A DNA stretch of 64,000 nt from Streptacidiphilus jeojiense (GTDB lineage Bacteria; Actinomycetota; Actinomycetes; Streptomycetales; Streptomycetaceae). The stretch spans positions 62,001-126,000 of the forward strand of contig NZ_JOEH01000015.1 in assembly GCF_000719095.1 (NCBI RefSeq). The letters run 5' to 3'. Position 1 is the first letter of the stretch; each line of letters begins with the position of its first letter. The notes beneath the pieces are model-generated. The model made no database searches, had not been told where the DNA came from, and saw only the letters and a program-made list of their open reading frames with translations. Positions 15,922-64,000 of the stretch are shown here, piece after piece. The position numbers and the translations under genes are program-made.

Positions 15922-15971
15922 TCCCCGAGTCTGGCAGCTTCCGACGGGTCTTTGAATGGGATCGGGCCAGG

Positions 15972-16709
15972 TCAGGCGATGCCGCCGTTGGCGAACAGCA
16001 CCTGGCCGTTGATCCAGCGGCCGGGGCCGGCCAGGAAGGCGACCGCCTCGGCGATGTCGGCCGGGGTGCCGAGGCGCTCCATCGGCGCCAGGCCGGCGAT
16101 CTGGTCGATGACCTGCTGCGGCTTCCCCTCCAGGAACAGCGGGGTGGCGGTCGGCCCTGGGGCCACCGCGTTGACGGTGACGTCGCGGCCGCGCAGCTCA
16201 CGGGCCAGGATCAGCGTCATCGCCTCCACCGCGCCCTTGGTGGCGGCGTAGGCGGCGTAGCCGGGCTGCTGCAGCCGGGTCACCGAGGTGGAGAAGTTGA
16301 CCAGGGCGCCGCCGGGGCGCAGCGTGCGCGCCGCCAGCTGGGAGACGACGAAGGTGCCGCGCACATTGGTGCGGTGCATCCGGTCGAAGTCACCGAGGTC
16401 GTACTCGGCGACGGGCCCCAGCAGCATGATGCCGGCGGTGTTCACCACCACGTCGACGCCGCCGTACAGCTGCCCGGTCTGCTCGAAGAGCGCGGACATC
16501 TCCGCCTCGTCGGCGACGTCGCCGCGGATCGCGGTGCCGGTCCCGCCGGCCGCGGTGAGGGTGTCGACGACCTCCTTGGCGCGGGCCTCGTTGCCGGCGT
16601 AGTGCACCACCACGGCCATGCCGTCGGCGGCGAGCCGCTCCGCGACGGCGCGGCCGATGCCGCCGGTGGCACCGGTGACGATCGCTACCCGGGGAGTTGT
16701 CGTGGTCAT
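15972..16709 (-). CDS. SDR-family oxidoreductase
   Basis: 245 aa from the ATG at 16709, which follows GAGGAGG. A classical short-chain dehydrogenase: TGATGGIG cofactor loop (residues 12-19), NTAG (about 90), active-site Ser in NFSTSVT and YAATK (catalytic Tyr and Lys). The C-terminus WINGQVLFANGGIA is the usual SDR end. It probably uses NADP(H) to reduce or oxidise a carbonyl or alcohol. It is divergent from a TetR regulator that has two operator-like boxes in the shared promoter, so it is likely induced by the compound it processes. Confidence 0.9.
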   Translation of the reverse strand: MTTTTPRVAIVTGATGGIGRAVAERLAADGMAVVVHYAGNEARAKEVVDTLTAAGGTGTAIRGDVADEAEMSALFEQTGQLYGGVDVVVNTAGIMLLGPVAEYDLGDFDRMHRTNVRGTFVVSQLAARTLRPGGALVNFSTSVTRLQQPGYAAYAATKGAVEAMTLILARELRGRDVTVNAVAPGPTATPLFLEGKPQQVIDQIAGLAPMERLGTPADIAEAVAFLAGPGRWINGQVLFANGGIA

Positions 16710-16733
16710 CGGAATCAGCCTCCTCTTCACATG

Positions 16734-16774
16734 TGGACTACTTGTCCATAAATGAAATGTAGACTGATCGTCCA
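16734..16774. promoter_or_regulatory. paired TetR operator boxes
   Basis: Two 15-bp inverted repeats, TGGAC-TACTT-GTCCA (16734-16748) and TAGAC-TGATC-GTCCA (16760-16774), are spaced 26 bp centre to centre in an AT-rich patch between the divergent SDR and TetR genes. Two dimers on one face of the helix would fit TetR-type repression of both promoters. Confidence 0.68.
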
Positions 16775-16804
16775 TATAGCGCAAGCAGGAGGGCGAGGGG
16801 ACAC

Positions 16805-17422
16805 ATGGACGAGACCGAGACCGAGACCGGGACCGCGGCCCAGCCACGGCGCGGCCGCGGACGGCGACCGGCGGCCCAGGTCCGGGGCGAGGTACTGGAG
16901 GCCGCCGCGGCGATGCTGTTCGAGGGCGGGCTGGCCTCGATCACCTTCGAGAAGGTCGCCGCCCGCGCCGGAGCGAGCAAGATGACGCTCTACAAGTGGT
17001 GGCCCTCCCCCGGGGCACTGGCCTTCGAGGCGTACTTCAGCGCGGTCGAGGAGACCCTCGCCTTCGCCGACACCGGCGACATCGAACGCGACCTGACCGC
17101 CCAACTGCACGCCTTCGTACGACTGCTGACGAAACAACAGGCCGGCCCGGCGATCGCCCAACTGGTCGGCGCGGCACAGACCGACCCCGACCTGGCCGCG
17201 GCCCTCAGCCGCAGCTACACCCATCCACGCCGACAACTCGCCGTCGACCGCCTCCGCACCGCCCAGAACCAGGGCCAGATCCGACCGGACGTCGACCCCC
17301 AGGTCGTGGTCGACCAACTCTGGGGCGCCTGCTACCACCGCCTCCTGCTCCCCGACGAACCCCTCGACCCCACCTTCGCCGACGCCCTGATCACCAACCT
17401 GCTACGCGGCATCCAGCCCTGA
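16805..17422 (+). CDS. TetR-family transcriptional regulator
   Basis: A 205-aa protein. After an acidic then Arg-rich N-terminus (GRGRRPAAQ), the HTH covers about residues 22-68: EVLEAAAAMLFEGGLASITF, then EKVAARAGASKMTLYKWWPS. The C-terminal ligand domain (about 85-200) is helical with no named family visible. The start follows GCGAGGGGACAC. The divergent SDR is its presumed target. Confidence 0.9.
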   Translation: MDETETETGTAAQPRRGRGRRPAAQVRGEVLEAAAAMLFEGGLASITFEKVAARAGASKMTLYKWWPSPGALAFEAYFSAVEETLAFADTGDIERDLTAQLHAFVRLLTKQQAGPAIAQLVGAAQTDPDLAAALSRSYTHPRRQLAVDRLRTAQNQGQIRPDVDPQVVVDQLWGACYHRLLLPDEPLDPTFADALITNLLRGIQP

Positions 17423-17500
17423 GCACCCCCTCGACATATATTCGCTCATCTGTTCTATTCTGAGGTTCGGAGGTCAACCGCACCAACCCGAGGAGGCGCC

Positions 17501-18532
17501 ATGCGCTGGCAGAATCTGAGTGCCGACGGCACGGCCGCGCCGGGGCTCTTCGGCCTTGACGTGGTGACGCGGACGTTCGACACGCCGGAGTTCCGGGGCA
17601 TCACGTTTCACGAGGTGCGGGCGCGGTCGATCATCAATCGGGTGCCCGGGGCGTCGCGGATGTCGTTCGGCTGGACCGTCAACCCGTACCGGGGCTGCAG
17701 TCACGCCTGTGTCTACTGCTTCGCGCGGAGCACCCACAGCTATCTCGACCTGGACACCGGGCACGACTTCGACAGTCAGATCGTCGTCAAGGTCAACGCC
17801 GCCGAGCTGCTGCGGCGTGAACTGGCTGCGCCGAAGTGGGACGGTGCGCACATCGCCATGGGCACCAATGTCGACTGCTACCAGCGGGCCGAGGGCCGGT
17901 ACCGGTTGATGCCCGGCATCCTGACCGCGCTGCGCGACCGGGCGAACCCCTTCTCCATCCTGACCAAGGGCTCGCTGATCCTGCGCGACCTGCCGATCCT
18001 GGAACAGGCCGCCGAGGTCACCGAGGTCGCCACCGCCGTCTCGATCGGTTTCACCGACCACGAGCTGTGGCGCAGCGTGGAGCCCGGCACCCCGTCGCCG
18101 GCCAAGCGGCTGGAGGTCTGCCGCACGCTGATCGAGCACGGCATACCCTGCGGCGTGCTGATGGCGCCGGTGCTGCCCTACCTCTCCGACTCCCCCGAGC
18201 AGTTGCGTGCCACCGTCGCCGCCATCGCCGCCACCGGCGCGACCTCGGTCACCCCGCTGGTCCTGCACCTGCGCCCGGGCGCCCGCGAGTGGTACTTCCA
18301 GTGGCTCGCCGAGAACCACCCCGACCTGGTCCGCCGCTACCAGGCGCTGTACCACCAGGGCGCCTACGCGCCCACCTGGTACCAGCGCCGGATCACCCGC
18401 CAGGTGCACGAACTGGCCGCCGAGTTCGGCATCGGGCCCGGTGAGCGACCGGCCCGGGCGCGGGTCGAGGTGCCTGCGGAGCCCGCGCAGCCGTCGGGGC
18501 CCCCGGAGCCGACGCAGCTCAGGCTGATCTGA
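17501..18532 (+). CDS. radical SAM protein, Rv2578c/SplB-like
   Basis: A 343-aa protein. The radical SAM cluster is C66-x3-C70-x2-C73 within RGCSHACVYCFAR, preceded by GWTVNPY as in the Rv2578c family and spore-photoproduct-lyase relatives. The TIM-barrel continues to about residue 300 (AMGTNVDCYQRAEGRYRLM, SILTKGSLILRDL), and the last 40 residues are a Pro-rich tail. Family members bind [4Fe-4S] and cleave SAM; their substrate in actinomycetes is unknown, though a link to DNA repair has been suggested by similarity to SplB. Upstream a -10 TATTCT (17456-17461) lies in an AT-rich patch, and GAGGAGG precedes the ATG. Transcribed alone. Confidence 0.87.
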   Translation: MRWQNLSADGTAAPGLFGLDVVTRTFDTPEFRGITFHEVRARSIINRVPGASRMSFGWTVNPYRGCSHACVYCFARSTHSYLDLDTGHDFDSQIVVKVNAAELLRRELAAPKWDGAHIAMGTNVDCYQRAEGRYRLMPGILTALRDRANPFSILTKGSLILRDLPILEQAAEVTEVATAVSIGFTDHELWRSVEPGTPSPAKRLEVCRTLIEHGIPCGVLMAPVLPYLSDSPEQLRATVAAIAATGATSVTPLVLHLRPGAREWYFQWLAENHPDLVRRYQALYHQGAYAPTWYQRRITRQVHELAAEFGIGPGERPARARVEVPAEPAQPSGPPEPTQLRLI

Positions 18533-18619
18533 TCTGATCACCCCGCCGTCGACGGAACACCGCTGCTGGTCGAGGATGTCGCCCAGCGACTCCACCGGTG
18601 AAAGCGAAGGGGACCAGAC

Positions 18620-19786
18620 ATGGGACAGCCGTTCGGCTCCTACCAGAACGAGATCTACCTCAACGGGCTGGGCGGCGTGCTGCCGCGGTTCCCGATGGGC
18701 TTCGCGGAACTGGAGGAGCGGGCGCAGGCGGCACTGCCGCCCTCGGTGTGGTCCTATGTCGCGGGCGGTGCCGGCGACGAGCGCACCCAGCGGGCCAATG
18801 CGACCGCCTTCGAGCGCTGGGGCCTGGTGCCGCGGATGTTCGTCGGCGCCGCGGAGCGCGACCTGTCCGTGGAGCTGTTCGGGATGCGGCTGCCCGCGCC
18901 GGTGTTCATGGCCCCGATCGGTGTCATCGGACTGTGCGCCCAGGACAGGCACGGCGACCTGGCCACCGCCCGGGCCGCCGCGCGCACCGGGGTGCCGATG
19001 GTCGCCTCCACCCTGACCGTCGACCCGATGGAGCAGGTCGCCGCAGAGTTCGGGGACACCCCCGGCCTCTTCCAGCTGTACACCCCCACCGACCGGGAAC
19101 TGGCCGCCAGTCTGGTCCACCGCGCCGAGAAGGCGGGCTACCGGGGCATCGTGGTCACCCTGGACACCTGGATCACCGGTTGGCGCCCGCGCGACCTGGC
19201 CACCGCCAACTTCCCCCAGCTGCGCGGCCACTGCCTGGCCGACTACACCAGCGACCCGGTCTTCCGCGCCCGGCTGGCGCGCTCGCCCGAGGAGGACCCG
19301 CAGTCGGCGGTGCTGCTCTGGACCCAGATCTTCGGCAACCCGCTCACCTGGGACGACCTGCCCTGGCTGCGCTCGCTGACCGACCTGCCGCTGATCGTCA
19401 AGGGCATCTGCCACCCCGAGGACGTGCGCCGGGCCAAGGACGGCGGCGTGGACGGCATCTACTGCTCCAACCACGGCGGCCGGCAGGCCAACGGCGGCCT
19501 CCCGGCCCTGGACGCGCTGCCCGGCGTGGTGGAGGCCGCCGACGGTCTGCCGGTGCTGTTCGACTCCGGGGTCCGCAGCGGAGCCGACATCGTCAAGGCC
19601 GTCGCCCTGGGCGCCTCCGCCGTCGGGATCGGCCGCCCCTACGCCTACGGCCTCGCCCTCGGCGGCACCGACGGCATCGTCCACGTGCTGCGCTCGCTGC
19701 TCGCCGAGGCCGACCTGATCATGGCCGTGGACGGCTACCCCACTCTCGCCGACCTCACCCCGGAGAGCCTGCGCCACCTTGGTTGA
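18620..19786 (+). CDS. FMN-dependent lactate 2-monooxygenase
   Basis: A 388-aa TIM-barrel flavoenzyme of the alpha-hydroxy-acid oxidase family. [15 protein letters not shown] near residue 45 and the active-site His in SNHGGRQ are diagnostic, as is [20 protein letters not shown] (FMN phosphate site). The overall pattern, including the extended N-terminus ([12 protein letters not shown]), matches lactate 2-monooxygenase, which converts L-lactate and O2 to acetate, CO2 and water, better than lactate oxidase or glycolate oxidase. The start follows AAGGGG. Transcribed alone. Substrate preference within the family is inferred. Confidence 0.85.
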
Positions 19787-50460: not shown

Positions 50461-50568
50461 ATGGCCCAGATCCTCGCCCTTCAGGAACTCGACGTGGAGC
50501 AGGAGGAGAGCCTGTTCGCCCCCTGCTTCAGCATCGTCGGCAGCAGCATCACCGTTCACACCCAGTGA
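50461..50568 (+). CDS. class III lanthipeptide precursor 1
   Basis: A 35-codon gene. The leader (residues 1-20) has ILALQELDVEQEE, the amphipathic Leu/Glu-rich helix with the LxLQ pattern recognised by class III synthetases. The core starts near residue 20 and holds one cysteine, Cys22, then Ser24, Ser28, Ser29, Thr31 and Thr34; it ends in Gln35. No S-x2-S-x(n)-C labionin motif is present. The start follows AGGAACAGGTGATCCGG (weak Shine-Dalgarno). It lies 64 bp before the LanKC gene. Leader residues 3-8 (QILALQ), Leu10, Asp11, Glu13, Glu16 and core positions C, +2 S, +6 S, +9 T, +11 H, +12 T match precursor 2. The product is expected to be a secreted cyclic peptide. Confidence 0.86.
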   Translation: MAQILALQELDVEQEESLFAPCFSIVGSSITVHTQ

Positions 50569-50632
50569 CCTCCTGCGCCGGTCGAGCCGCAGCTGACAGT
50601 GGATCGCATCGCAGGCCCTGAGGAGAGATCAC

Positions 50633-53239
50633 GTGCTCGACGCCCTCGCTGAGTCGCTCGCGGACCAGGAGTACTACGCTCCGCTCGCGACGATGGCCGA
50701 TCCGGGCCCGCGCTTCGCGCCCAGCCGGCCGGAACCCCGCTGGCTCCGGGTGGAGCAGGACATCTGGACGGTGTGGAGCGAGCCGGACTCCCGGCGCCCC
50801 GAGCAGGGCTGGAAGATCCATGTGTCGGCGCGGCTCGACCGTGCCCAGCAGGTGCTCGACCGGGTGGCGGAGGTCTGCTTCGCGCAGCGGGTGCCGTTCA
50901 AGCACATCGCCGCCCGGACCTTCTTCCTGATCCTGCATCACAAGCACGCCCACCGGGCCCAGGCGGGCAAGTTCTGCGCGATCTACCCGCCGGACACGGA
51001 GACCGCGCGGCGGCTGCTCGGCCTGCTGTCCGAGGCGCTGCGCGACGAGGACGGTCCCTACATCCTCTCGGACCGCCGCTTCGGCGACTCCCGCACCGTC
51101 CACTACCGCTACGGGGCGTTCGGCGCCCGGAGCAGGCTGCTGCCCGACGGCACCAGGCAGGGACTGGTCCGCGACGGCGCGGGGCGCGATGTCGCGGACG
51201 AGCGCCGGCCGTACTTCGTGCTGCCCGACGGGATCACCGATCCCTTCGTCGCGGAGCAACTCGCAGCGCACTCGGGCGCGATCCTGATCCGCGACTACGA
51301 GGTGCTCGCGGCGCTGCAGCCGAGCAACGCCGGTGGGACGTACCAGGCCCGGGACACCCGCACCGGCCGCCGCGTCTTCATCAAGGAGGCGCGCGCCCAC
51401 AACGGCCTTACCTGGGACGGCAAAAGCGCGCAGCAGCGGCTGCGGCACGAATACGAGGTACTGACCGCCCTCCATGCGGCGGCTCCCGGTGTGTGTCCGG
51501 AGCCGCTGGACCACTTCACCGAGTGGGAGCACGACTTCCTGGTCACCGAGTTCGTCGAGGGGGATCCGCTGCGGACCTGGCTGAGCCGCATCTCTCCGCT
51601 GATGCGGAGCGGGCGGTCGGCCGCGGACTACCCGGCGTTCTTCGGCCTCTGCCGGGGCGTGCTGGACGGCCTGGACCGAACCCTGGACCAACTGCACGCG
51701 CTGGGGTACCGGTTCGGCGACATCAGTCTCGGGAACGTCCTCATCACCCCGTCGGGCGACGCCAGGCTCGTCGACTTCGAGGCCGCCACCGCGCTGGACG
51801 GGCCCCCGGTGGCCATGGGTACCAGGGGCTTCTCACCGCCCACCGCGCTGCTGCGCGACAGCGACGACCCGTTTCTGACGGACCGTTACGGCATGGCCGC
51901 GCTGGCCCTCGCCTGCTTCGCGCCCTTCCACGACGTCGCCGAACAGGCCCCCGCCGCACTGACGTTGCTGCGTCACGAGCTCGGAACGGCCGCGGCGCCG
52001 CCACCGGAGGACCTGTGGACCCGGGCCACCGCCTTCCACCGGGGCGCCGCCAGGGCCGACGGAACCGCGTCCTCCGCGCCGCCCTCCCCCGCCGAGGTCG
52101 ACGCCGATCCGCTGGGCTGCCTGGGCCGGCTCGCCGACCAGGTGGCGGAGGGCCTGCTGGCGACGGCCGACACCGGCCGCAAGGACCGGGTCTTCCCACC
52201 GCCGCCCGAGGCGTTCGGCGCCAACACCGTGTGCGTGGCCTACGGCACCGCCGGTGTGGTGCACGCCCTGCACCGGGCCGGGGTGCCGATCCCGGACGAG
52301 ATCGAGAAGCGGCTCCGCCACGACGCCCTGACCCGGCGTGACGAACTGCCCCCCGGCCTGGACACCGGTACCGCCGGGATCGCCCGCGTCCTGGCAGCGC
52401 TCGGCCGCCTGGACGAGGCGGTCGACCTCGCCGGGCACGCCGACGGCCACCCCCTCACCGCGTCCTGCACCACCCTGGCCGGTGGACGGGCCGGGGTCGG
52501 CCTGACCTGGCTCGCCCTGCACCGGCACACCCGGGACAGCCGCCATCTGGAGCGGGCCGCCGCCGCAGGCGACGCCATCCTGGCCACCGCCGACCTGGTG
52601 CCCACCCTCGGCGCCGACGACGCCCGCGGGCTGTTCCACGGCCGCTCCGGACTGGCCCTGTTCCTGCACCACCTGGGCGGCGAGACCGGCGACGACCGCT
52701 ACCGCGCGGCCGGACTGCGGTTGCTGCACCAGGAGTTGGACCGGGCGATCGCCATGGACGACGGCACCCTGTCCTTCGCGGACAACGCCGTGATCAGGCG
52801 CGCCATGCCCTATCTGGCCATCGGCGCGGCGGGCGTGGGGACCGCGCTGACCCGGTACGCGGCCACCGGCCAGGACGAACGCATCGCGGCGGCACTGCCG
52901 TTGGTGACGGCCGGCGCCTCCGTGGCGACCTGGACCAGGGAGGCGGGCCTCTACGGCGGGCTGGCCGGACTGGCCTGGTCCCTGGCCGACCACGCGGAGG
53001 CCGACGGCGGCGACACCGCCCGCGCGGCCGCCGTACGGTCCGCCACCGGCCTGCTCAAGTACGCCGTCCCGCACACCCGCGGCGTCCGCTTCCTCGGCTC
53101 GCAGGCGCACCGCTTCAGCGCCGATCTGTCCAGCGGCGCGGCCGGAGTCCTGCTGGCCCTGCACCGCGTCCTGCACGGGCCCGGGGACGAGGTGTTCACC
53201 CTGGACCCGGCCACCGGGACCCCCGCGCACCGCGGGTGA
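50633..53239 (+). CDS. class III lanthionine synthetase LanKC
   Basis: 868 aa from GTG after GAGGAGA. The order is N-terminal lyase-type domain (about residues 1-215, with KIHVSARLD, RTFFLILHHKHAHRAQAGKF and GPYILSDRRFGDSR), Ser/Thr kinase domain (about 216-480) and LanC-like cyclase domain (about 500-868). Kinase residues are intact: Lys251 in VFIKEA, Asp363 and Asn368 in GDISLGNVL, and Asp381 in VDFEAA. The cyclase has the GxxG repeats (GIARVL, FHGRSGLALFL, LSSGAAGVLLALHRVL) but lacks the zinc Cys-Cys-His ligands. That makes it class III rather than class IV. It phosphorylates Ser/Thr of the precursor, eliminates phosphate and closes thioether rings. It lies between two precursor genes. Confidence 0.93.
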   Translation: MLDALAESLADQEYYAPLATMADPGPRFAPSRPEPRWLRVEQDIWTVWSEPDSRRPEQGWKIHVSARLDRAQQVLDRVAEVCFAQRVPFKHIAARTFFLILHHKHAHRAQAGKFCAIYPPDTETARRLLGLLSEALRDEDGPYILSDRRFGDSRTVHYRYGAFGARSRLLPDGTRQGLVRDGAGRDVADERRPYFVLPDGITDPFVAEQLAAHSGAILIRDYEVLAALQPSNAGGTYQARDTRTGRRVFIKEARAHNGLTWDGKSAQQRLRHEYEVLTALHAAAPGVCPEPLDHFTEWEHDFLVTEFVEGDPLRTWLSRISPLMRSGRSAADYPAFFGLCRGVLDGLDRTLDQLHALGYRFGDISLGNVLITPSGDARLVDFEAATALDGPPVAMGTRGFSPPTALLRDSDDPFLTDRYGMAALALACFAPFHDVAEQAPAALTLLRHELGTAAAPPPEDLWTRATAFHRGAARADGTASSAPPSPAEVDADPLGCLGRLADQVAEGLLATADTGRKDRVFPPPPEAFGANTVCVAYGTAGVVHALHRAGVPIPDEIEKRLRHDALTRRDELPPGLDTGTAGIARVLAALGRLDEAVDLAGHADGHPLTASCTTLAGGRAGVGLTWLALHRHTRDSRHLERAAAAGDAILATADLVPTLGADDARGLFHGRSGLALFLHHLGGETGDDRYRAAGLRLLHQELDRAIAMDDGTLSFADNAVIRRAMPYLAIGAAGVGTALTRYAATGQDERIAAALPLVTAGASVATWTREAGLYGGLAGLAWSLADHAEADGGDTARAAAVRSATGLLKYAVPHTRGVRFLGSQAHRFSADLSSGAAGVLLALHRVLHGPGDEVFTLDPATGTPAHRG

Positions 53240-53280
53240 ACCACAGCGAAGGAACCACAACCGAGAAGGAGAATCACCCC

Positions 53281-53385
53281 ATGACCCAGATCCTCGCCCT
53301 GCAGGCCCTGGACACCGAGCCCCAGGAGGTCGCCACCTTCTGCATCAGCTCCGGTTGGAGCGACTGGAGCATCCACACGGCCTGA
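53281..53385 (+). CDS. class III lanthipeptide precursor 2
   Basis: A 34-codon gene 41 bp after LanKC, with GAAGGAG 9 nt before ATG. The leader has QILALQALDTEPQE, nearly the same as precursor 1. The core holds one Cys (Cys21), then Ser23, Ser24, Ser27, Ser30 and Thr33 and a symmetric SGWSDWS segment with two Trp. Ring-forming positions relative to Cys are conserved with precursor 1: +2 Ser, +6 Ser, +9 Ser (Thr in precursor 1), +12 Thr after an invariant His. The non-ring residues differ strongly, as expected of a two-product RiPP locus. A hairpin terminator follows 15 bp later. Confidence 0.87.
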   Translation: MTQILALQALDTEPQEVATFCISSGWSDWSIHTA

Positions 53386-53609: not shown

Positions 53610-56402
53610 GTGGTCCAGGCGAACGGCAACTCACCGGGGCAGTTCGGAACCCCGCCCCAGGACGACCGGGTCAGGGATCCGGGAGCCGAAACGGTCGGCG
53701 AGCTGGTCTCGCTGACCACGCGCGAACGCCAGGTCGCGGCTCTCGTCGCGGAGGGTCTCAGCAGCGCGGCGATCGCCGCCGAGCTCTACCTCAGCCCCCG
53801 CACCGTGGAGACCCACATCGCCCGGATCTACCGCAAGACCGGGGTGTCCTCCCGCGCCGCACTGGCCTCCATCGTGACCCGCAGCAAGGCCGACCCGCCC
53901 GCGCCTGCCGACCCGCCCGCTGACATCGCCCCGCAGACGCCGCGGGCAGCGCGGGGCAGCCGACTGGTCGGGCGAGGCGTCGAAGTCGATTCGGTGACAA
54001 GGGCGTTGGAAGATCTCAAGGCGGGCACGGGCCGGGCGATCGCGCTGGTCGGGGAGCCGGGCATCGGCAAGAGCTCACTGCTGCGGACGGCCGCGGCACA
54101 GGCCCGGGACCAGGGGATCCAGGTCCTCACCGCACACGGCGGCCACCCGGCCCTGCCCGCGCTCCTCGGCGGGCCGGGCACCATGGACCTGCACGAGGTG
54201 GCGGCGCACGCCGCCGACCGTGCTGCCGTCATGGCGGTGGTGGACGACCTGCACGATCTCGCCGCCGACCGCATCGCCGACATCGAGCGGCTGATCGAAA
54301 CGACAGCTGCCGGCCCGGTGCTGTGCCTGCTCTCCTACCGGCAGCGCCAGCTGTCGCCGGCGCTGGCGGCCGTGCTCTCCCGGGCGTCGTCCGCCGGGTT
54401 CCTGGAGGTGTGGAGCCTGGGGCCGCTCTCCCAGGAGCAGGCTCGCGAACTGCTCGGCGACCGGCCGAACCTGGACCAGGTGCACCGCGAGGCCGAGGGC
54501 AATCCCCAGTACCTCCAGATCATGGCCGCCGACGACCGGACGGCGGTCGACGCCGAGACGGCGATCCTCGGTGAACTCACCGGCCTCGACGCCCGTGCGC
54601 TGGCCGTGGTGCAGGCGGCGGCGGTCCTCGACGGGCCGTTCCACCCGGAGCTGCTGGCCGGCGTCGCGGGTCTGGAGCTGTCAGTGGTAATGGCCGCGCT
54701 GGACTCACTGGCCCGGCTGGACCTGGTCCGCCCGGCCGAGCCCGCCTCGCAGTTGACGCTGCGTCATCCGGCGATCGGAAAGGTGGTCTACCGGCGGCTG
54801 GAACCCGGCCGCCGCACCGAACTGCACCGGATGGCCGAGGCCGAACTGGCAGCACGGGCGGCGCCGATCGCGGAACGCGCCCACCATGTCGCGCGAGCCG
54901 CGGATCCGCGGCGGCCGGAACACGCGACCACCCTGATCGCGGCGGCCCGCGGCATGATCTACACCTCCCCCGCCGTCGCCAAGGGCCATCTGCAGGCGGC
55001 GCTGTCGCTGCTCCAGGAGGGCGGTGCGCACTGGTACGAGGCCAAGGTCCTGCTCGCCCGCGCCCGGCTGCTCACCGGGGACGCCTCCGAGAGCCGTGCG
55101 CTGCTGGAGGCCCTGCGCTCGGACATCCCCGGCGGACCGCCCGGTGACGCGACCGCGCTCGCCGACTCCAGCCGGATCGAACGGCGGCTGGGCCGGTACA
55201 CCGAGGCCGGTGCGCTGGCCCGCGCCGGGCTCGCGGCGCTGACCGACGACGACTCGGCGACGGCCGCGGCCCTGCATTCCGAACTGGCCGACTACGCCTA
55301 CGACGTGCAGGACTTCGAGACGTCCCGGCAGCACGCCGAGACCGCGGCGGCACTGGCGCACGGGCACGGGGACCGGGTCGGCGAGACCTACGCCCTGGGC
55401 AAGGCGGCCCTCGCCCATCTGTTCACCAGCGACCAGGACAGTGCGCTGACGACGCTGCGCAAGGCCGCCGAACTCCTGGACGCCGTCCCCGACTCGACGC
55501 TGGTGGCCAACCTGGAGGCCGCGTTCCAGGTGGGCATGGCGGAAGGGATGCTGGGACGGCTGGTGGACTCCGAACGCCATCTCACCCGTGGCGCGGTGCT
55601 GTCCCGGCGCACCGGGCAGACCTACATCCATCCGCAGATGGTGACGGTGCTCGGCAACGCCCAGCTGCGTTCGGGGAACCTGCACGGCGCACTGGCGACC
55701 CTGGACGAGGCCGACCACCAGGTCAGACGGATCGGCGACACCGCGACCGAGGCGGTGCTGATGACGCTGCGGGCCGAGGCCCTGTTCTGGCGCGACGGCC
55801 CCGGCGACCTGACGGACGCGACGGAAACCGCCGAACGCGTCATGGCGTCCGTCGGCTCCACGCTGACCTCCTGGGCCGTCTCCGTCCGCTGCACCACCGC
55901 CGAGTTCGTCCTGCACGCCGGCGAACCGGCCCGGGCCGGATGGCTGCTGCTCGACGCCGCGGGCGGCGAGGGGCTGCCGAGGTTCACCGCCTGGCGCAGA
56001 CCCCGCTGGTGCGAGAGCCTGACGCAGGTGGCGGTCGCCGAGGGCGACCAGGATGCGGCCGACCGCTGGGCCCGGCTGGCCGAGGAGAGCGTCGAACAAC
56101 TGCCCTCCGCGGGCCGGCGGGGCTTCGCCCTGCGGGCGCGGATGCGGGCCCGGGTGCTGCGTGGCGACACCGACGGAGCACTCCGCAGCGCCCGGGACGC
56201 GATAGCCGACTTCGCCACCTGCGGTGAACGCCTGGAGCTGGCCCGCACCCTGCTCACCGCGGCCGCACTGGCCCTGGACGCCGGCCGGACCGACGCGGTG
56301 GGCGGCCGGCTGGACCGGGCCGCGGTCCTGGCCGACCAGTGCGGCTCGGCCCGGCTGGCAGCCGGTGTCACCACCCAGCGGGCGCGGCTTGCCGATCGGT
56401 AG
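53610..56402 (+). CDS. LuxR-type ATPase/TPR regulator with N-terminal HTH
   Basis: 930 aa from GTG with AAGGGAG 5 nt upstream. The LuxR HTH is at about residues 32-85 (TTRERQVAALVAEGLSSAAI, SPRTVETHIARIYRKTGVSS), at the start of the protein rather than its end. After a Pro/Asp linker, an AAA/NACHT-like ATPase (about 112-400) has Walker A GEPGIGKSS and Walker B AVVDDLHD. TPR-like helices then run to the C-terminus. Classical LAL regulators place the HTH last, so this is an inverted architecture. Its position right after the lanthipeptide unit makes it the likely pathway-specific activator; the sensed nucleotide or ligand is unknown. Confidence 0.86.
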   Translation: MVQANGNSPGQFGTPPQDDRVRDPGAETVGELVSLTTRERQVAALVAEGLSSAAIAAELYLSPRTVETHIARIYRKTGVSSRAALASIVTRSKADPPAPADPPADIAPQTPRAARGSRLVGRGVEVDSVTRALEDLKAGTGRAIALVGEPGIGKSSLLRTAAAQARDQGIQVLTAHGGHPALPALLGGPGTMDLHEVAAHAADRAAVMAVVDDLHDLAADRIADIERLIETTAAGPVLCLLSYRQRQLSPALAAVLSRASSAGFLEVWSLGPLSQEQARELLGDRPNLDQVHREAEGNPQYLQIMAADDRTAVDAETAILGELTGLDARALAVVQAAAVLDGPFHPELLAGVAGLELSVVMAALDSLARLDLVRPAEPASQLTLRHPAIGKVVYRRLEPGRRTELHRMAEAELAARAAPIAERAHHVARAADPRRPEHATTLIAAARGMIYTSPAVAKGHLQAALSLLQEGGAHWYEAKVLLARARLLTGDASESRALLEALRSDIPGGPPGDATALADSSRIERRLGRYTEAGALARAGLAALTDDDSATAAALHSELADYAYDVQDFETSRQHAETAAALAHGHGDRVGETYALGKAALAHLFTSDQDSALTTLRKAAELLDAVPDSTLVANLEAAFQVGMAEGMLGRLVDSERHLTRGAVLSRRTGQTYIHPQMVTVLGNAQLRSGNLHGALATLDEADHQVRRIGDTATEAVLMTLRAEALFWRDGPGDLTDATETAERVMASVGSTLTSWAVSVRCTTAEFVLHAGEPARAGWLLLDAAGGEGLPRFTAWRRPRWCESLTQVAVAEGDQDAADRWARLAEESVEQLPSAGRRGFALRARMRARVLRGDTDGALRSARDAIADFATCGERLELARTLLTAAALALDAGRTDAVGGRLDRAAVLADQCGSARLAAGVTTQRARLADR

Positions 56403-56416: not shown

Positions 56417-59335
56417 TCACCGGGTGGCCTGGTGGCTCGGAGCGTCGGGGAACTGGGCCAGGACACCGATCAGGGCGGAGCGTGAACTGACGCCGAGTTT
56501 GCGGAAGATCCGGGTGAGGTGGCTCTCGACGGTCTTGACCGACAGGAACAGGCTGGTCGCGATGGCACGGTTGGACATGCCGCGGGCCACCAGGTCGGAG
56601 ATGTGGCGCTCCTGCTCGGACAGCGTGCGGTCGGCCGCCCGGCTCCGGCCCGGACGGGGGCGGCGGGCGCCCAGGCTGCGCTGGGCGTTGACGGCGAGCG
56701 CGCCCAGGTGCGCGGCGCCGTGGGTGTCGGCGATCCGCTTCGCACGGCCGATGGCGGCGGCTGCCTCGTCGTCCTGTCCGGCGCAGGCCAGGGCCCGGCC
56801 GAGGAGGAGCCTGGCACGGCCCTCGGCCGTCACCAGTCCGCCGACCGCGAAGAAGTCGACCGCGGCGGCGAAGAGGGCTGCGGCGGCGGCCGGGTCTCCG
56901 TCCTGGACGCATCCGTTGGCCAGGGCGGCATAACCCAGCTGTCCCGGGAGCCGAACAGCCTCGGCCGCCTCGTCGGCGTGCTTGGCCCATTCGCGCGCCG
57001 CCGCGAGGTCCCCCCTGGCCGTCTCGGCCTGGGCCGCGGTGCAGCACCACATGGCCCGCAGCGCGTGCGTGGTCACCGAGCGGTTGCTGCCGGTGATGGT
57101 GCGCAGCAGGTCGAGGCAGTCGTCGGGACGCCCCTGGTCGAGCCGGACGGAGGCGAGCACCGCGGTCGAGAGTTCCCACAGGCGGCCACGGCGGCCCACC
57201 GAGTGCACAGCGCGTTCGGCGGCCTCGACGGCGGCCTCCGGGCTGTCCCGCAGCGCGGTGGCCGCAGCGCGCAGCGCCAGCGCGTACCCGATCAGGTCCG
57301 GCCGGTCGAGCAGGTGGGCCATCTCCTCCGCCTCGGCCGCCGACTCGATCCCCCCGGCCAGATCACCGGTCGCCTGCTGTGCGTACGACTGGCAGAGCAG
57401 CAGGTACGGCAGCATGTAGCTCTGTCCGTTCAGGCGGGCCACCCGGATGCCCCGGTCCATGTGCCGGATCGCGTCGTGATGGCGTTCGGCCAGGACCTCG
57501 GCCCAGCCGAGCTGTCCGACCTCGTCCAGGAAGGTCGCCAGCTCCTGGTCCTCCATCAGATCGATCGCGGTCGCCGCCTCGGTGGCGTACGCCCGCAGTG
57601 GCGCGACCCTGCCGCCGTACGCGGCGCCCAGGGCGCGGCAGGCGGCCGCGGAGGTGAGGGTCCGGCGGTCGGGTGCGGGCGTGTCGGCGAGCAGGGCGTC
57701 GAGGAGGCCGTCCGCCTCGTCGGTCCTCCCCTGGCCCACACGTGTGGTGGCGAGTTGGAGCCGGAGCGGATTCGCCCGCGGGTCCGTCGTCGGCCAGCGG
57801 GTCAGTTCGTCCTCCAGCACGGTCTCCGACACCTTGATGCTGCCGATGATCCGTTCTATGATCGAGCGCAGCGCCACGATCGGTATCCGCCGGTCGGGCC
57901 GGTCGGACGGGACCAGCTCCAGGGCCCGGCCGAGAGTGTCACGGCAGGCGGCGAGTTCGCCGGTCACGCCGTAGGCGTTGGCCAGCCCGAGCAGCATCCC
58001 GAGTCGGTCCAGGACCGACTCCTCGGAACCGTCCGGGACGGACAGGTACAGCGCCGCCCGCAGCCAGGCCGCCCCGGTCGCGGGCGCCGAGTGGACCGTC
58101 TGCGTGGCCGCCTCGGTCAGCACCCGGACGGCCTCGGTGTCGCCCATCTGCGCGGCGCGCGCGATGTAGGGTGCGCGCTCCACGGTGCCGGCCCCGCTCC
58201 TGCGCAGGGCCTCGTCGGCGCGGGCGTTCGCGGCCAGCCGCCAGCCGGGCGGCGTCTCGCCGGAGACCACCTCGCGGAGCAGCGGATGCCGGAACTGCAG
58301 GAGTTGGCGTACCTCCGGCTGCGGTGCCGGCGGCCGGCACGAGCGGATCAGATCCGTCCCGGAGAGGACGTCGAGGGCCTCCAGGGCCGGTCCGGTGGCC
58401 AGGCCGGACACGGCGGCCAGCAGGATCGGGTCGAAGGGGTCGCCGAGCACTGCGGCGGCGCGCAGCACCGCCAGCTCGTCCGCCGTGAGCAGGGCGATCT
58501 CACGGGCCAGCGCGGCCCGCAGGGTGGCCGGGAGGTCGCTGAAGTCGGTGGCGCCCTCGGTGGTGAGCTCGGAGAGCACTTCGAGGTAGAGCGGATTGCC
58601 CCCGCTCACCGTGCACAGCTGCTCCCGCTGGGCGCGTGTGTGCGCGGTGCCGAGCAGGCGGTGGCAGGACTGCCGGTCCAGCGGGGAGAGCGGCAGGCCG
58701 GCGGTGCGGTAGCCGGCGGCGGCGTGCTGGAAGGAGGCGAGCAGCTTCGCCGGTGCCTGCCGTGGCCGGTGCGCGCAGGCGAGGATCAACGCCGCCCGGG
58801 GCGGCTGCCGCAGCAGGTGGTGCAGCAGTTCCACGCTGCCCTCGTCGGCCCAGTGCAGGTCGTCCAGGCAGAGCAGCACCCCGCGGCCCCGGTCGGCGTC
58901 GGCGAGGAGCCGGCCGAAGGCGTGGTGGAGTCGGTAGCGTTCCACGCCGGGAGAGGGCGGCGGTCCGTCGTGCGGCGCCGCCGTCCGGGGAAGTACCAGG
59001 TCCAGCAGGGCCGCGGTCTCCAGGTCCAGGGTCTCGTGCCAACGCTCCGTCAGTCGGCCCACGCACCCCCGGACGGGTTCGGCGAACGCCCCGAAGGAAC
59101 GCTCCTGCTCGAACTCCGAGGCCCGACCGCTCAGCACGGTGAGCCCCTCGGCCCGGGCCAGGGCGCCGAGTTCGTCGAGCATCCGGGACTTGCCGAGTCC
59201 GGGGTCACCGGTGATCTCGATGACCGTCGAGGCGCCGCCGGCGCAGCCGGCCACGGCGGACCGCAGGACGGACATCTCGTGCTCCCGGCCCGTCAGCGGT
59301 CGTGCCTCGGACTGCTGGTGGCGCTGTGCGCTCAT
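56417..59335 (-). CDS. LuxR-family LAL regulator (conventional architecture)
   Basis: 972 aa from the ATG after GAGGAGG. The ATPase at about residues 15-330 has Walker A GDPGLGKSR and Walker B LLCLDDLHWADEG. Long TPR-like helical repeats run through about 340-870. The C-terminal HTH (about 900-955) is TLSEQERHISDLVARGMSNR, then SLFLSVKTVESHLTRIF. These proteins activate secondary-metabolite or sugar operons. It is convergent with the lanthipeptide regulator (14-bp gap). It may control itself or nearby genes through the palindrome at 59412. Confidence 0.9.
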   Translation of the reverse strand: MSAQRHQQSEARPLTGREHEMSVLRSAVAGCAGGASTVIEITGDPGLGKSRMLDELGALARAEGLTVLSGRASEFEQERSFGAFAEPVRGCVGRLTERWHETLDLETAALLDLVLPRTAAPHDGPPPSPGVERYRLHHAFGRLLADADRGRGVLLCLDDLHWADEGSVELLHHLLRQPPRAALILACAHRPRQAPAKLLASFQHAAAGYRTAGLPLSPLDRQSCHRLLGTAHTRAQREQLCTVSGGNPLYLEVLSELTTEGATDFSDLPATLRAALAREIALLTADELAVLRAAAVLGDPFDPILLAAVSGLATGPALEALDVLSGTDLIRSCRPPAPQPEVRQLLQFRHPLLREVVSGETPPGWRLAANARADEALRRSGAGTVERAPYIARAAQMGDTEAVRVLTEAATQTVHSAPATGAAWLRAALYLSVPDGSEESVLDRLGMLLGLANAYGVTGELAACRDTLGRALELVPSDRPDRRIPIVALRSIIERIIGSIKVSETVLEDELTRWPTTDPRANPLRLQLATTRVGQGRTDEADGLLDALLADTPAPDRRTLTSAAACRALGAAYGGRVAPLRAYATEAATAIDLMEDQELATFLDEVGQLGWAEVLAERHHDAIRHMDRGIRVARLNGQSYMLPYLLLCQSYAQQATGDLAGGIESAAEAEEMAHLLDRPDLIGYALALRAAATALRDSPEAAVEAAERAVHSVGRRGRLWELSTAVLASVRLDQGRPDDCLDLLRTITGSNRSVTTHALRAMWCCTAAQAETARGDLAAAREWAKHADEAAEAVRLPGQLGYAALANGCVQDGDPAAAAALFAAAVDFFAVGGLVTAEGRARLLLGRALACAGQDDEAAAAIGRAKRIADTHGAAHLGALAVNAQRSLGARRPRPGRSRAADRTLSEQERHISDLVARGMSNRAIATSLFLSVKTVESHLTRIFRKLGVSSRSALIGVLAQFPDAPSHQATR

Positions 59336-59411
59336 CGGCCTCCTCAACTCCAGCCCCGCGTGAGCGGTTCGTGTGGTGAAGCCAGGAGCACTCCGGGCTC
59401 CCTCGATCATC

Positions 59412-59451
59412 GGACATGACATGTCCACCGGGCGTCCGGGGAACTACGTAC
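59412..59451. promoter_or_regulatory. palindrome and CTACGTAC box upstream of the LAL gene
   Basis: GGACATG-A-CATGTCC (59412-59426) is a perfect 7-bp-arm palindrome in the leader of the LAL gene. CTACGTAC (59444-59451), shared with the regulator promoter at 53501, lies 17 bp further upstream. Confidence 0.5.
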
Positions 59452-59493: not shown

Positions 59494-60084
59494 TCACAGG
59501 GCCATCAGACGCTCCAGTTCGCGGATCAGCTGCGCTGCCGCCGCCCGCTGCTGCGGCGGCATGCCCGGGGCGGCCTCGGCGGCGCCGGACCTGTCGGCGG
59601 TGACGATGCGCAGGGCGATCGCGGCCTGACGGGCGAACAGCGAGAGCAGGTCCAGCTCCGGCAGCCCCGACCGCGCCTGGGCGGAGGGGTCGAGGATCTC
59701 CAGGACGCCCAGCACCTGGCCGTCGTGGATCAGCGGGGCCGCCATCAGGGCGTCCGGCACGTACTGGGTGGACTGGGCCAGCGAGCGGTCGAAGGCGGCG
59801 TTGTCGGTGAGGTCGTCGACCACGATCGACTCACCGGAGACCGCCACCCAGCCGGCGATGCCCTGGCCGGCCGGGAAGCGCCGGCCGACCAGGAACTCCT
59901 CGCCCTGGCCGGAGACCGCCCGGAAGACCAGCTCGCCGCTCTCCTCGTCGAGCAGGAACACGGAACTGGCCAGGGCGCCGAAGATGGCGCGGGCCACGTC
60001 GACGATCGACTGGAGCAGCTCCAGCGCGACCGGGTCGGCGGGATCGGCCACCGGGAGTGTGGTGGGTTCGATGTCGGAGGGCAC
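59494..60084 (-). CDS. GAF-domain protein
   Basis: A 196-aa protein, essentially one GAF domain (about residues 25-165): SSVFLLDEESGELVFRAVSG, GRRFPAGQGIAGWVAVSGES, VPDALMAAPLIHDGQVLGVL. A helical tail follows (QQRAAAAQLIRELERLMAL), possibly a coiled coil for dimerisation. Stand-alone GAF proteins bind cyclic nucleotides or other small ligands. Downstream member of the cyclase-protease-GAF operon, 13 bp after the S8 peptidase. A cAMP-binding role is an inference from the neighbour. Confidence 0.87.
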   Translation of the reverse strand: MPSDIEPTTLPVADPADPVALELLQSIVDVARAIFGALASSVFLLDEESGELVFRAVSGQGEEFLVGRRFPAGQGIAGWVAVSGESIVVDDLTDNAAFDRSLAQSTQYVPDALMAAPLIHDGQVLGVLEILDPSAQARSGLPELDLLSLFARQAAIALRIVTADRSGAAEAAPGMPPQQRAAAAQLIRELERLMAL

Positions 60085-60097: not shown

Positions 60098-60952
60098 CTA
60101 CTGGTGCTGCGGACCGTGGCCCGCGGCCATCGATCGGCCGGCGGCGGGACGCGGGGAGCGGACGTTGGCCGCGGAGAGGTAGAGCGCGCTCTTCAGCTGA
60201 AAGGGCGTCATCCGCGGTTGCTCGGAGAGAATCCGGGCGCAGAGCCCGGCGATGAAGGGGGTGGCGAAGCTGTTTCCGCTGGTGCGGATGGTCCGGCCGC
60301 CCAGCCAGGCCACCTCGACGTTCTGGCCGGGGGCGAAGAACTCCACCGGCGGGCTGGGGTTGTAGAGGTGCAGGTCGAGGTCGTCCTCCTGGTGACTGCC
60401 CACCGAGACCACCGACGCGAACCGCCAGGGGAAGCTCTCCACCGGGGTGTTGTGGGCCGAGGCGACGATCACCGTGCCGTTGAAGTACGCCTCGTCGGCC
60501 AGTGCGTGCAGTTCCTCGACGAAGCGCATCCGCGTGGTGGACAGGCTCAGGTTCACCACGTCGTAGCGCTGCCGGACCGCCCAGCGCAGCCCTTCGAGCA
60601 GCACCTCGCCGGTGCCGGAGAAGCGTTCGCCGAGGACCCGGACGCTGTGCAGCTCGCAGTGCGGCGCGACCCTCCGGACGATGCCGGCACAGGCCGTGCC
60701 GTGACCGCAGGAGTCGCCGGTGTCGGTCGGGGCCACCCGGATCCCGGTGTCGTCCTTCTCGACCACCCAGGAGGAGTCCACCCGCCCGACCACGGGATGG
60801 TCCCGGTCGACGCCGGAGTCCACCACGCAGACCCGCACCCCTCGGCCGCCGGCCCCGGGCGCCGCTGCGTGGTCGAGCAGCACCGGGATGTCCTCCGGGC
60901 TCCGGCCGCGCAGGCTCCAGGTGAGGCCGGTCTGTGGCGTGGCCGTGCTCAT
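60098..60952 (-). CDS. intracellular subtilisin-like S8 peptidase
   Basis: A 284-aa protein without signal peptide or I9 propeptide, so it is likely made active in the cytosol or held by a partner. The triad is complete: Asp45 in VVDSGVD, His84 in CGHGTACAG, Ser228 in TSGNSFATPF, with oxyanion Asn168. The last 25 residues are basic and Ala/Gly-rich. The ATG overlaps the stop of the cyclase/ATPase gene (ATGA), and it is followed by the GAF gene. A regulated protease acting after nucleotide signalling is plausible. A role as leader protease for the lanthipeptides is possible but unproven. Confidence 0.87.
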   Translation of the reverse strand: MSTATPQTGLTWSLRGRSPEDIPVLLDHAAAPGAGGRGVRVCVVDSGVDRDHPVVGRVDSSWVVEKDDTGIRVAPTDTGDSCGHGTACAGIVRRVAPHCELHSVRVLGERFSGTGEVLLEGLRWAVRQRYDVVNLSLSTTRMRFVEELHALADEAYFNGTVIVASAHNTPVESFPWRFASVVSVGSHQEDDLDLHLYNPSPPVEFFAPGQNVEVAWLGGRTIRTSGNSFATPFIAGLCARILSEQPRMTPFQLKSALYLSAANVRSPRPAAGRSMAAGHGPQHQ

Positions 60953-63900
60953 CGTCGCTCGCTTCCCTCGGAGGCGGCCCGGATCAGCCGGGCCGCCCAT
61001 CGCATACCGGGGCGGTGGCCCTTGGCGGCGAACGCCGAACGGGCCAGGGCCGCTGCCGATGCCGCCTCCGCGGCGTCACCGAGCAGCAGCTGGGTGTGGG
61101 CCCGGTCGAGCAGGGCAGAGCCGCGCAGGACCGGGGAGTCGGTGCGGTCCGCGGCGCGCACGGCGCGGCCGGCGGCCTCCAGGGCCGGGACGCGATCGCC
61201 CCGGGCGGCTGCGATCCGGCCCTGCAGACCGTCGTGTTCGACCGCGTCCCCGCGCGGCCGTCCCGCGCCCGAGCCGACCTGCTCCAGGGCCTCCGCGGCG
61301 GCGGACCAGCGGCCGGAGTCCGCCAGGATCCTGGCGGACTCCAGGGCGATGTTGCCCAGCAGCGAGGTCGCCCCCAGCCGGCGGGCGACCACCCGGGCGG
61401 CGTCGAGCATGTCCAGGGCCCGGTCGGGACGGTCCGCCAGCACCTCCACCGCCGCCGCGAAGAGCGGGAGGAACACCTGGGCCTCCGCGTAGCCCAGTTC
61501 GTCGGCCAACCGGCCCGCCTCGGCCAGGCTCTCCCGGGCCGCGTCCGGTTCCCCGTGCAGCGCGAGCAGGACCGCGAGCGGGCAGTTCAGGGTCACCCGG
61601 ACGGTGCGCCGTTCGCGCCCCTGCTCGGCCAGCAGGGTCCGGCACTGGGCCACCGCGGCGGGCACCGGTTCCGGGCCCCGCCACAGCGAGATGCCCATCG
61701 CACCGAGGGCCGCGGCCCGCTCCGGCTCGCCGTCGGCGCGGACCGCGTGGGCCAGCGCCCGGGTCAGCAAGCCCTCGGCCTCCCCGTGGCGGCCCTGTGC
61801 CTGGCGGGCCTGGGCGAGCCGCAGGCACGCACGGGCCTGACCGAGCTGGTCCCCGGCGGCCTCGAAGACCGGCAGCGCGGCCTGCGCCGCGTCCGCGGGG
61901 GACTCCCCGTCGGCGTCCACCATCGCCAGGGACAGCCGGGCGTGGGCGGTCTCGGCCGGGTCGGCAGAACCGGCCAGCACGCTCCGGAGCAGGGCGCGGC
62001 CCTCGTCGGTGCGGCCCAGGGCCAGTCTGACCTCGCCCAGCCTGCGGGTGGCGGCCGTCGTCCCGGGCTCGTCCGACCGGCCCAGGGCCAACGCGCGGGC
62101 CAGCAGGTCGGCCGCCCAGGGCAGGTCGGACCGGGCGCAGGCCTGGTCCCCCGCCCGTCCCAGCGCTTCGGCCGCCCGGACCCTCAGGTCCTCGGTCGCG
62201 GCATCGAGCATGCCGAGTTCGCTGCGGTAGCCGTGGGCGCGCTCCAGGTGGCCGCCCACCGCCGCCGGCCCGGCGACCCGGACCGAGGGCAGGGCGGCAG
62301 CCTTCTCGTGCCCCTCGGCCCGGGCCCGCTTGGACATGCAGGCGTAGGTGACCTCCTGGACCAGGCCGCTGCTGAAGCGGAACGTGACCTGGCCGGGGCG
62401 GCTGCGCCGGTCCGGCTCCACCAGTCGGCTCCGGCTGAGCCGCAGCAGGGCGTCGCGCACGCCGTCCGCCATCCGGGCCGGATCCGTGCCGCAGAGTCCG
62501 GCCAGTTCGCCGGGCACGAACTCCCGACCGATGACCGAGGCCAGGTTCAGCGCCGTGCGCTCGCCGGGTTCGAGAGCGTCGATCCGCGCCCCGAGCACGG
62601 CCTGGAGGCTCAGCGGCAGCCCGTCCGGCGCTCCGGCCGCGGCCGCCAGCAGCTGCTCCAGGTGCAGCGGATTCCCTCCGGCCCGCTCCAGCAGCCGGAG
62701 CGGCCCGGATTCCAGGTGGGCGCTGACGTCGGCCAGCTCGGCGGCCAGCAGTGACGCGTCGTCGTCCGACAGGCCGGACAGCAGCAGCGACCTGGACGGG
62801 GTGCCCGGCTGCTCCCGCCGCGGGGTCGACGGCTCGGGACGGGACAGGCACACCAGCAGCACGGCGGTCCGGCCGAGTTCGGTGACCAGCCGGTCGAGCA
62901 GGTCCAGCAGCAGCGGTCCGGCCCAGTGGAAGTCGTCGACCACCAGCACCACCGGACGCCGGGCGGCCAGCACGGCCAGGATCCGGACCAGCGCCGCGCA
63001 GGTCTCCTCCACCGAGGGGTTCGGGGTGCCGTCCAGCAGCAGCCCGACGGACAGCACCCGCAGTGCCTCGGTCACGTCCGGCTGCTCACCGGGGCCGAGC
63101 GGGTCACCCGGACCACCGGCCGCGAGCAGCGCGGTCACCGCGTCGGCCAGCGGCTGCAGGCTGCCCCGCTCGCCGTAGGGCCGACAGCGCCCGGTGCCGT
63201 GCAGGACCGGCCGGTCGGTCTGCTGCAGCCACTCCCTGAGCAGCCGGGTCTTGCCCTGTCCGGCCTCACCGTGGACCAGTACCCGCTGGACGCCCCTGCC
63301 CCGCCCGGCCTCCGCCAGGGCCTGGTCCAGTGCGGCCAGTTCGCGGCGCCGGCCGACGAAGCGGACGTCGAAGCGGCGCAGCAGCTCCGGGTCGTCCTCG
63401 CCGAGACCCAGCAGCCGGTACGCGGCCACCGGGTCGGTCTTCCCCTTCAACAGCAGCGGTCCGACCGGCTCGGCGCGCACGGCGGCCCCCACCGACAGCA
63501 GGGTGTCGGGGCCGATCAGGATCTGGCCGGCGGCGGCGTTCTGCTCCAGCCGGGCGGCGACGTTGACGGTCTCGCCGGAGACCAGTGCCTGCCGGGCGGA
63601 CGCGTCCGAACCGGCCACCACCTGACCGGTGTTGACGCCGATCCGGACGTTCAGCCGGACGCCCAGGGTGAGTTGCAGCTCGGCATTGAGGGTGGCCAGG
63701 GCGTCGAGCATGTCCAGGGCTGCGGCGAGGGCGCGCCGGGCGTCGTCCTCGTGCACGGTCGGCACCCCGAACACGGCCATCACCGCGTCCCCGATGAACT
63801 TCTCCACGGTGCCGCCGTGCGCCTCTATCTGACGTCCCATCAGTTCGAAATAGCGCAAGGTGACGGTGCGCAGGGTCTCCGGGTCGAGGGTGCCGGACAG

Positions 63901-64000
63901 TGCGGTGGAGCCCACCAGGTCGCAGAACAGCACGGTGACCATCTTCCGGCCCTCCGTCGCCGCGGCCGCCGGGGCCGGTGCGCACGGTGTCCCGCAGGAG
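60949..64000 (-). CDS. adenylate cyclase-AAA ATPase-TPR signalling protein, 5' end outside window
   Basis: At least 1016 codons. Reading upstream of the internal Met at 63942 gives an in-frame SCGTPCAPAPAAATEGRK that continues off the window. The true start therefore lies beyond 64000, probably with a zinc-ribbon. The class III cyclase domain has the metal Asp residues in LFCDLVGST and FIGDAVMAVFG. It also has the adenine-type Lys in EKFIGD and the Asn/Arg pair in VNVAARLE, so it should be an active adenylate cyclase. An ATPase follows (Walker A GEAGQGKTR, Walker B VLVVDDFHW), then TPR-like repeats. Upstream gene of the operon with the S8 peptidase and GAF protein. Confidence 0.88.
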   Translation of the reverse strand, partial: SCGTPCAPAPAAAATEGRKMVTVLFCDLVGSTALSGTLDPETLRTVTLRYFELMGRQIEAHGGTVEKFIGDAVMAVFGVPTVHEDDARRALAAALDMLDALATLNAELQLTLGVRLNVRIGVNTGQVVAGSDASARQALVSGETVNVAARLEQNAAAGQILIGPDTLLSVGAAVRAEPVGPLLLKGKTDPVAAYRLLGLGEDDPELLRRFDVRFVGRRRELAALDQALAEAGRGRGVQRVLVHGEAGQGKTRLLREWLQQTDRPVLHGTGRCRPYGERGSLQPLADAVTALLAAGGPGDPLGPGEQPDVTEALRVLSVGLLLDGTPNPSVEETCAALVRILAVLAARRPVVLVVDDFHWAGPLLLDLLDRLVTELGRTAVLLVCLSRPEPSTPRREQPGTPSRSLLLSGLSDDDASLLAAELADVSAHLESGPLRLLERAGGNPLHLEQLLAAAAGAPDGLPLSLQAVLGARIDALEPGERTALNLASVIGREFVPGELAGLCGTDPARMADGVRDALLRLSRSRLVEPDRRSRPGQVTFRFSSGLVQEVTYACMSKRARAEGHEKAAALPSVRVAGPAAVGGHLERAHGYRSELGMLDAATEDLRVRAAEALGRAGDQACARSDLPWAADLLARALALGRSDEPGTTAATRRLGEVRLALGRTDEGRALLRSVLAGSADPAETAHARLSLAMVDADGESPADAAQAALPVFEAAGDQLGQARACLRLAQARQAQGRHGEAEGLLTRALAHAVRADGEPERAAALGAMGISLWRGPEPVPAAVAQCRTLLAEQGRERRTVRVTLNCPLAVLLALHGEPDAARESLAEAGRLADELGYAEAQVFLPLFAAAVEVLADRPDRALDMLDAARVVARRLGATSLLGNIALESARILADSGRWSAAAEALEQVGSGAGRPRGDAVEHDGLQGRIAAARGDRVPALEAAGRAVRAADRTDSPVLRGSALLDRAHTQLLLGDAAEAASAAALARSAFAAKGHRPGMRWAARLIRAASEGSERR

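Follow-up and report, generated by a model that had tools for sequence, protein, structure and literature searches.

Class III lanthipeptides such as labyrinthopeptin, SapB/AmfS and durhapeptin are, in the sources available, made by a LanKC with lyase, kinase and zinc-free cyclase domains from precursors with an LxLQ leader and a short Ser-rich core in which Cys comes last (S-x2-S-x(2-5)-C). The locus described here is alike in enzyme, leader and Ser-rich core, but its cores start with Cys (C-x-S-x3-S), which raises the question of what ring its synthetase closes, and in which direction. The determinants of labionin formation by LanKC cyclases that lack zinc are described as an open question (PMC10604976). 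The locus was studied within a stretch of 64,000 nucleotides from Streptacidiphilus jeojiense, here called the window; P1, lanKC and P2 make up this class III locus, one of a family with Cys-first precursors (Table 1).

Two precursor genes flank a LanKC gene

A preliminary description had reported two tiny genes flanking a LanKC gene, with near-identical leaders and with cores opening on Cys. Both ORFs and the synthetase gene were found in this arrangement on the plus strand, with 64 bases between P1 and lanKC and 41 bases between lanKC and P2. By-eye reading of the sequence gave an upstream GTG at 50452, which may be the true start of P1. A scan of the locus for sigma-70 promoters and terminators yielded none.

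P1 (MAQILALQELDVEQEESLFAPCFSIVGSSITVHTQ, 35 aa) and P2 (MTQILALQALDTEPQEVATFCISSGWSDWSIHTA, 34 aa) indeed have leader residues Q3-Q8, L10, D11, E13 and E16 in common, and the ILALQ within their QILALQ stretch conforms to the LxLQ recognition motif. The sole Cys of each peptide opens the core (CFSIVGS in P1, CISSGWS in P2; both S-x3-S) ahead of every core Ser, and both cores fit the pattern C-x-S-x3-S-x2-[ST]-x-H-T-x as described. Neither contains the labionin-type motif S-x2-S-x(2-5)-C.

No curated NCBIfam lanthipeptide model was passed by P1 or P2, and the model of the noursin precursor NorA was absent among their matches. Model NF038154 (lanthi_III_a), the best or second-best one for P1, P2 and the relatives matching it, scored 18.3 bits with P1 and 13.0 bits with P2 (cut-off 22). 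Such low scores would fit small ORFs that are not genes, or a motif that is a chance similarity, yet four of ten relatives scanned passed the same cut-off, and synteny and conservation (see below) speak against chance, which makes this reading exceedingly improbable. Part of the family is thus already named class III lanthipeptide, and the core pattern of NF038154 may overlap with that of the window family.

Table 1. Features of the P1-LanKC-P2 locus and its downstream neighbourhood (positions in the window)
Feature	Position	Strand	Basis and remarks
Precursor P1 (lanA1)	50461..50568	+	ORF and sequence; orthologue upstream of LanKC in L123
P1 leader	50461-50523	+	
P1 Cys-first core	50524-50565	+	
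LanKC, class III lanthionine synthetase (lyase, kinase, metal-free cyclase)	50633..53239	+	868 aa, GTG start
Precursor P2 (lanA2)	53281..53385	+	ORF and sequence; orthologues in G010 and G923
P2 leader	53281-53340	+	
P2 Cys-first core	53341-53382	+	
Large LuxR-type regulator, AAA/MalT-like region	53610..56402 (putative start)	+	Pfam GerE, AAA_16, TPR_MalT
Second large LuxR-type AAA regulator	56417..59428	-	Pfam AAA_16, GerE
GAF-domain protein	59494..60084	-	Pfam GAF; copies in L051, L034/L125, L078
Subtilase (S8)	60098..61000	-	Pfam Peptidase_S8, 97 bits; copies in L051, L034/L125, L078
Adenylate/guanylate cyclase-AAA protein	60949..63999 (frame reaches window end)	-	Pfam Guanylate_cyc, AAA_16; copies in L051, L034/L125, L078

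Conservation of the core motif

All 84 loci examined that have a precursor fitting [PF]CxSx3S carried a LanKC piece of at least 60% identity on the same strand; these loci partly overlap (many are re-fetches of one place), and in L124 the LanKC is broken. Family ORFs were searched with an [IVLM]LALQ leader, and precursors were selected by [PF]CxS. The 40 distinct precursors obtained comprise 27 distinct cores, and Cys0, Ser+2 and Ser+6 are present in every one of these. Because the selection pattern already demanded [PF]CxS, including Ser+2, only +6 is a free test: Ser was found there 27 times and Thr never (54 Ser and no Thr for +2 and +6 pooled). Beyond +6, the distinct cores contain 18 Ser and 33 Thr; the rows are related, and the contrast with +6 is only indicative. 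Position +1 is Phe, Ile or Leu, and the tail is variable. The core Cys is preceded by Pro in 37 and by Phe in three of the 40 precursors, one or the other being demanded by the selection. Cys is absent beyond position 0 in 26 of the 27 cores, with a second Cys at +3 in the remaining one; the leader, too, contains an additional Cys in three precursors. In the core CLSIFASHYYETL the only early Ser are those at +2 and +6. Eight of 48 small LALQ ORFs did not fit, namely three apparent stray frames (judged by eye) and five Cys-free peptides, and no Cys-last precursor of the window's clade was among these eight.

In the preliminary description the mirror motif C-x5-S-x2-[ST] was taken as the unit kept, and conservation of Cys, +6 and +9 in orthologues was expected. 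This held for Cys and for Ser at +6, but position +9 varies (Ser or Thr in 10 of 27 distinct cores) while Ser+2 is kept, so that the conserved unit is C-x-S-x3-S. The His-Thr of the tail is conserved in three of three P2 orthologues, and P1 of genome G923 has Arg-Thr instead. Since the relatives keep the Cys-first arrangement, the peptides of the locus are probably closed into rings by an uncommon type of cross-link; receptor binding or common descent could also account for the fixed Ser spacing.

Distribution and layouts

A scan of genome contigs with LanKC revealed 16 Streptomyces loci at 63-67% identity, of which 15 have a QILALQ precursor directly after lanKC and the sixteenth (L043) ends at the contig end. 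Searches with a precursor profile gave matches in at least 17 of 394 genomes of the family (13 with C-x-S-x3-S peptides, three with Cys-free peptides beside other LanKCs, and G015 with a partial profile match and no precursor seen), in seven of 70 genomes of genus g14 (five with the motif, two Cys-free), in at least 18 of 392 genomes of genus g9 (motif and LanKC in all 19 loci examined) and in one of 35 genomes of genus g6. In a phylum-wide search of 396 genomes, the window's own genome was the sole one among the matches listed. The counts for 394, 392 and 396 genomes are lower bounds because scoring was limited to 19 candidates per genome. A protein search, here for LanKC only, showed relatives in Actinospica (70-72%) and Streptosporangium (63%) among the matches listed (120 of 454).

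The P1-LanKC-P2 layout is also present in the Streptomyces-type genome G923 (locus L123). Other layouts comprise a single downstream precursor, which in Streptomyces often ends in PEPM or PDPM, and up to three tandem downstream precursors in genus g14. Genome G010 encodes a LanKC orthologue (87-89%) and has P2 only, with no P1 ORF at the corresponding place and one profile match genome-wide; the P1/P2 pair is therefore not obligatory. An obligatory two-peptide system was also rejected in view of the single precursor at most loci and the three precursors in three g14 genomes. Spread by plasmids was likewise discarded: the 86 plasmid records matching LanKC were all below 60% identity (top rows 34-35%), and one Streptomyces precursor had no match among plasmid records. 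Streptomyces loci share the core CFSVAWSISDIFPEPM almost without change although their neighbour genes differ, a pattern more suggestive of a function in signalling or development than of an arms-race antibiotic.

The synthetase and its phylogenetic position

LanKC scored 746.4 bits against NCBIfam model NF038151 (cut-off 575) and contains the Pfam domains RamC_N, Pkinase and LANC_like. Its AlphaFold model has a mean pLDDT of 68 and a pTM of 0.56. Catalytic residues were mapped on a solved LanKC (chain 8sao), taken as ThurKC on account of matching residues with a 3-residue offset, and compared in 12 aligned LanKCs, ten from the window's clade and two sisters. The DFE motif and the eight lyase residues reported for ThurKC (PMC10604976) show no substitution in any of the 12 sequences, which also keep the cyclase domain, where many alignment columns do not vary. 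Zinc ligands are absent, the positions of ThurKC S726/F770/D771 being A729/Y774/G775 in the window LanKC. With lyase and kinase residues intact and no zinc ligands, the enzyme is likely to dehydrate its substrate and to cyclise it without a metal, the Cys attacking in the C-terminal direction.

In a tree of 39 LanKCs, the synthetases of C-x-S-x3-S peptides (24 rows) lie on one side of a branch with an SH-aLRT value of 99. This tree was made by a quick method, with SH-aLRT values only and midpoint rooting, from a set without L039, L043, L045, re-fetched copies and the broken LanKC of L124, and with two duplicates removed. A mixture-model tree of 27 rows, which leaves out four long-branched rows and eight near-copies, agreed with it. 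The nearest rows, L006 and L007 (LanKC identity 47-48%), form a sister group in which five precursors have the Cys-last motifs S-x2-S-x3-C or S-x2-S-x4-C, as judged by eye. In L007 (712-1379), the 47% LanKC is preceded by three precursors in tandem, each with a single Cys and a canonical Cys-last motif. The window clade and this sister group lend themselves to a comparison aimed at the determinants of ring type and ring direction. The cassette is compact: a single enzyme plus a single peptide, 32 to 42 residues long.

Proposed cross-link and alternatives

Rings of reverse direction are the natural expectation from Cys-first cores. We tentatively favour, at somewhat below even confidence, that LanKC closes a reverse-direction thioether ring, most likely using both invariant Ser in a permuted labionin or its mirror form. 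The steps, like those of processing and regulation, are predictions from sequence. LanKC would bind the QILALQ leader and then phosphorylate and eliminate Ser+2, Ser+6 and some Ser/Thr of the tail; the Cys at core position 0 would add to a dehydroalanine located C-terminal to it, giving a thioether ring opposite in direction to those of known class III products. Labionin formation is described as attack of Cys on a central Dha followed by attack of the enolate on a second Dha (PMC4979651). By analogy, Cys0 would most likely add to Dha6 and the enolate would capture Dha2, closing a carbacycle over S-x3-S (permuted labionin); alternatively, Dha2 would be the centre (mirror form). Cleavage near the Pro/Phe-Cys border would be the task of a protease, for which the linked S8 subtilase is a candidate.

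That a LanKC can close a labionin carbacycle over S-x3-S is documented by NMR for noursin (NorA/NorKC; PMC10206099). Like the window family, noursin has a single Cys, but this lies eight residues after the second Ser, and a Thr-His crosslink is present in addition (PMC10206099). The S-x3-S of the family matches the carbacycle half of noursin, and Cys alone would have switched side.

A plain reverse lanthionine is a credible competitor to which we give a lesser probability. Here Cys0 would close either a 7-residue ring with Dha6 or a 3-residue ring with Dha2. The resulting enolate would simply take up a proton, and the other invariant Ser would be left as Dha or unmodified. One and the same class III motif is described as giving either lanthionine or labionin (PMC7268733). 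Labionin formation in ThurKC requires Arg610, Asp667 and Asp771 (PMC10604976), and these are not conserved in the window LanKC (Ala616, His669 and Gly775, respectively, the enzymes being remotely similar and the alignment unsure), so that the cyclase may make a plain lanthionine or act differently. By itself, however, a plain lanthionine gives no reason for keeping both Ser+2 and Ser+6 as Ser.

Dehydration only, with Cys left free to bind metal, to form a disulfide (e.g. one linking P1 to P2) or to be coupled to another molecule, appears unlikely. The zinc-free cyclase with its unusual site residues would agree with it, as would the position of Cys at the likely new N-terminus, directly after the selected Pro or Phe. 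Against it speak the retention of the cyclase domain with its invariant columns and the ordinary ring motifs of the sister group.

For a different Streptomyces subfamily, subfamily C, with C-x-S-x2-S peptides, a 'reverse labionin' was proposed in 2024 (PMC11251773); its motif is present in neither P1 nor P2. The peptides of subfamily C resemble the window family in a single Cys before two Ser and in a class III enzyme; they differ in spacing (S-x2-S versus S-x3-S), and their clusters also contain a LanM and a Cys-free peptide (PMC11251773). That source names no known member of the subfamily. No LanM was among three PF05147 matches in the window's genome, a search that missed one LanKC found otherwise. 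What is new here is the C-x-S-x3-S variant, the Cys-first 'reverse labionin' idea being already in print (PMC11251773). A literature search found no paper on a C-x-S-x3-S class III family or an ILALQ leader, nor any class III product described as a bicycle with an N-terminally placed Cys; supplements and most subscription papers were outside its scope, and it counts as weak evidence.

In the window's genome, a C-x-S-x2-S motif lies 12-19 kb past the window end, and the peptides concerned adjoin two LanKCs of a distant tree group. Cys-first substrates may therefore have arisen twice, the second group being represented by one genome. The broader proposition, that the clade joins Cys0, Ser+2 and Ser+6 into an N-terminal-Cys bicycle (permuted or mirrored labionin) and that LanKC direction was reversed in one lineage or more, perhaps in both the C-x-S-x3-S and the C-x-S-x2-S group, is more speculative, and we hold it somewhat doubtful.

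Neighbouring genes

The genes for the GAF protein, S8 subtilase and cyclase-AAA protein occur as a block near LanKC in the window, L051, L034/L125 (one record) and L078, i.e. in four of 35 loci of more than 8 kb searched. A LuxR-AAA gene accompanies the block in all but L078, copies of the regulator at 56417 standing beside LanKC in L051 and L034/L125. The regulator at 53610 has a close copy (87%) only in L051 among the 35 loci and is presumably linked to the lanthipeptide locus. The block was not found in L123, though the LanKC of L123 belongs to the window's subclade. The subtilase contains Asp61, His100 and the Ser of SGNSFATP (numbering of the 300-aa frame) and is a candidate leader protease. 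A conserved export or tailoring gene as part of the cassette was discarded, no neighbour family occurring in more than five of 29 loci compared (flanks mostly 6-10 kb, crude gene calling).

Other lanthipeptide loci

A second class III locus of the window's genome (L050, C15:126001-146000, positions 9777-18855) starts about 10 kb past the window end. It comprises two LanKCs, an MFS transporter, a SARP-type regulator and three C-x-S-x2-S precursors, whose motifs CISFVS, CVSYAS and CVSYAS equal the published 'reverse-labionin'-like motif. In G923 (L123:1591-6257), a LanKC of the same distant group and a SARP-type regulator adjoin the C-x-S-x3-S locus, and the two systems may thus move as a pair. 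In the stretches examined of the related loci L052 and L123, C-x-S-x2-S peptides were not found.

The five Cys-free LALQ precursors are located in L083, L084 and L085 beside other LanKCs, 34-36% identical to that of the window. Four of them have cores of the type SH[WT]S...AH.R..-PV in common, and one gave a weak match to the noursin model (14.9 bits against a cut-off of 40); these peptides are possibly His-crosslinked without Cys. A LanC-like protein (L001, C47:42252-43349; 485-aa frame, 119 bits) is encoded in the window's genome away from the class III loci. Finally, L008 (1306-1449), in the window's genus, encodes beside another LanKC a peptide ending in LFCSHWSSRTCM, whose Ser-rich core has a Cys close to either end.
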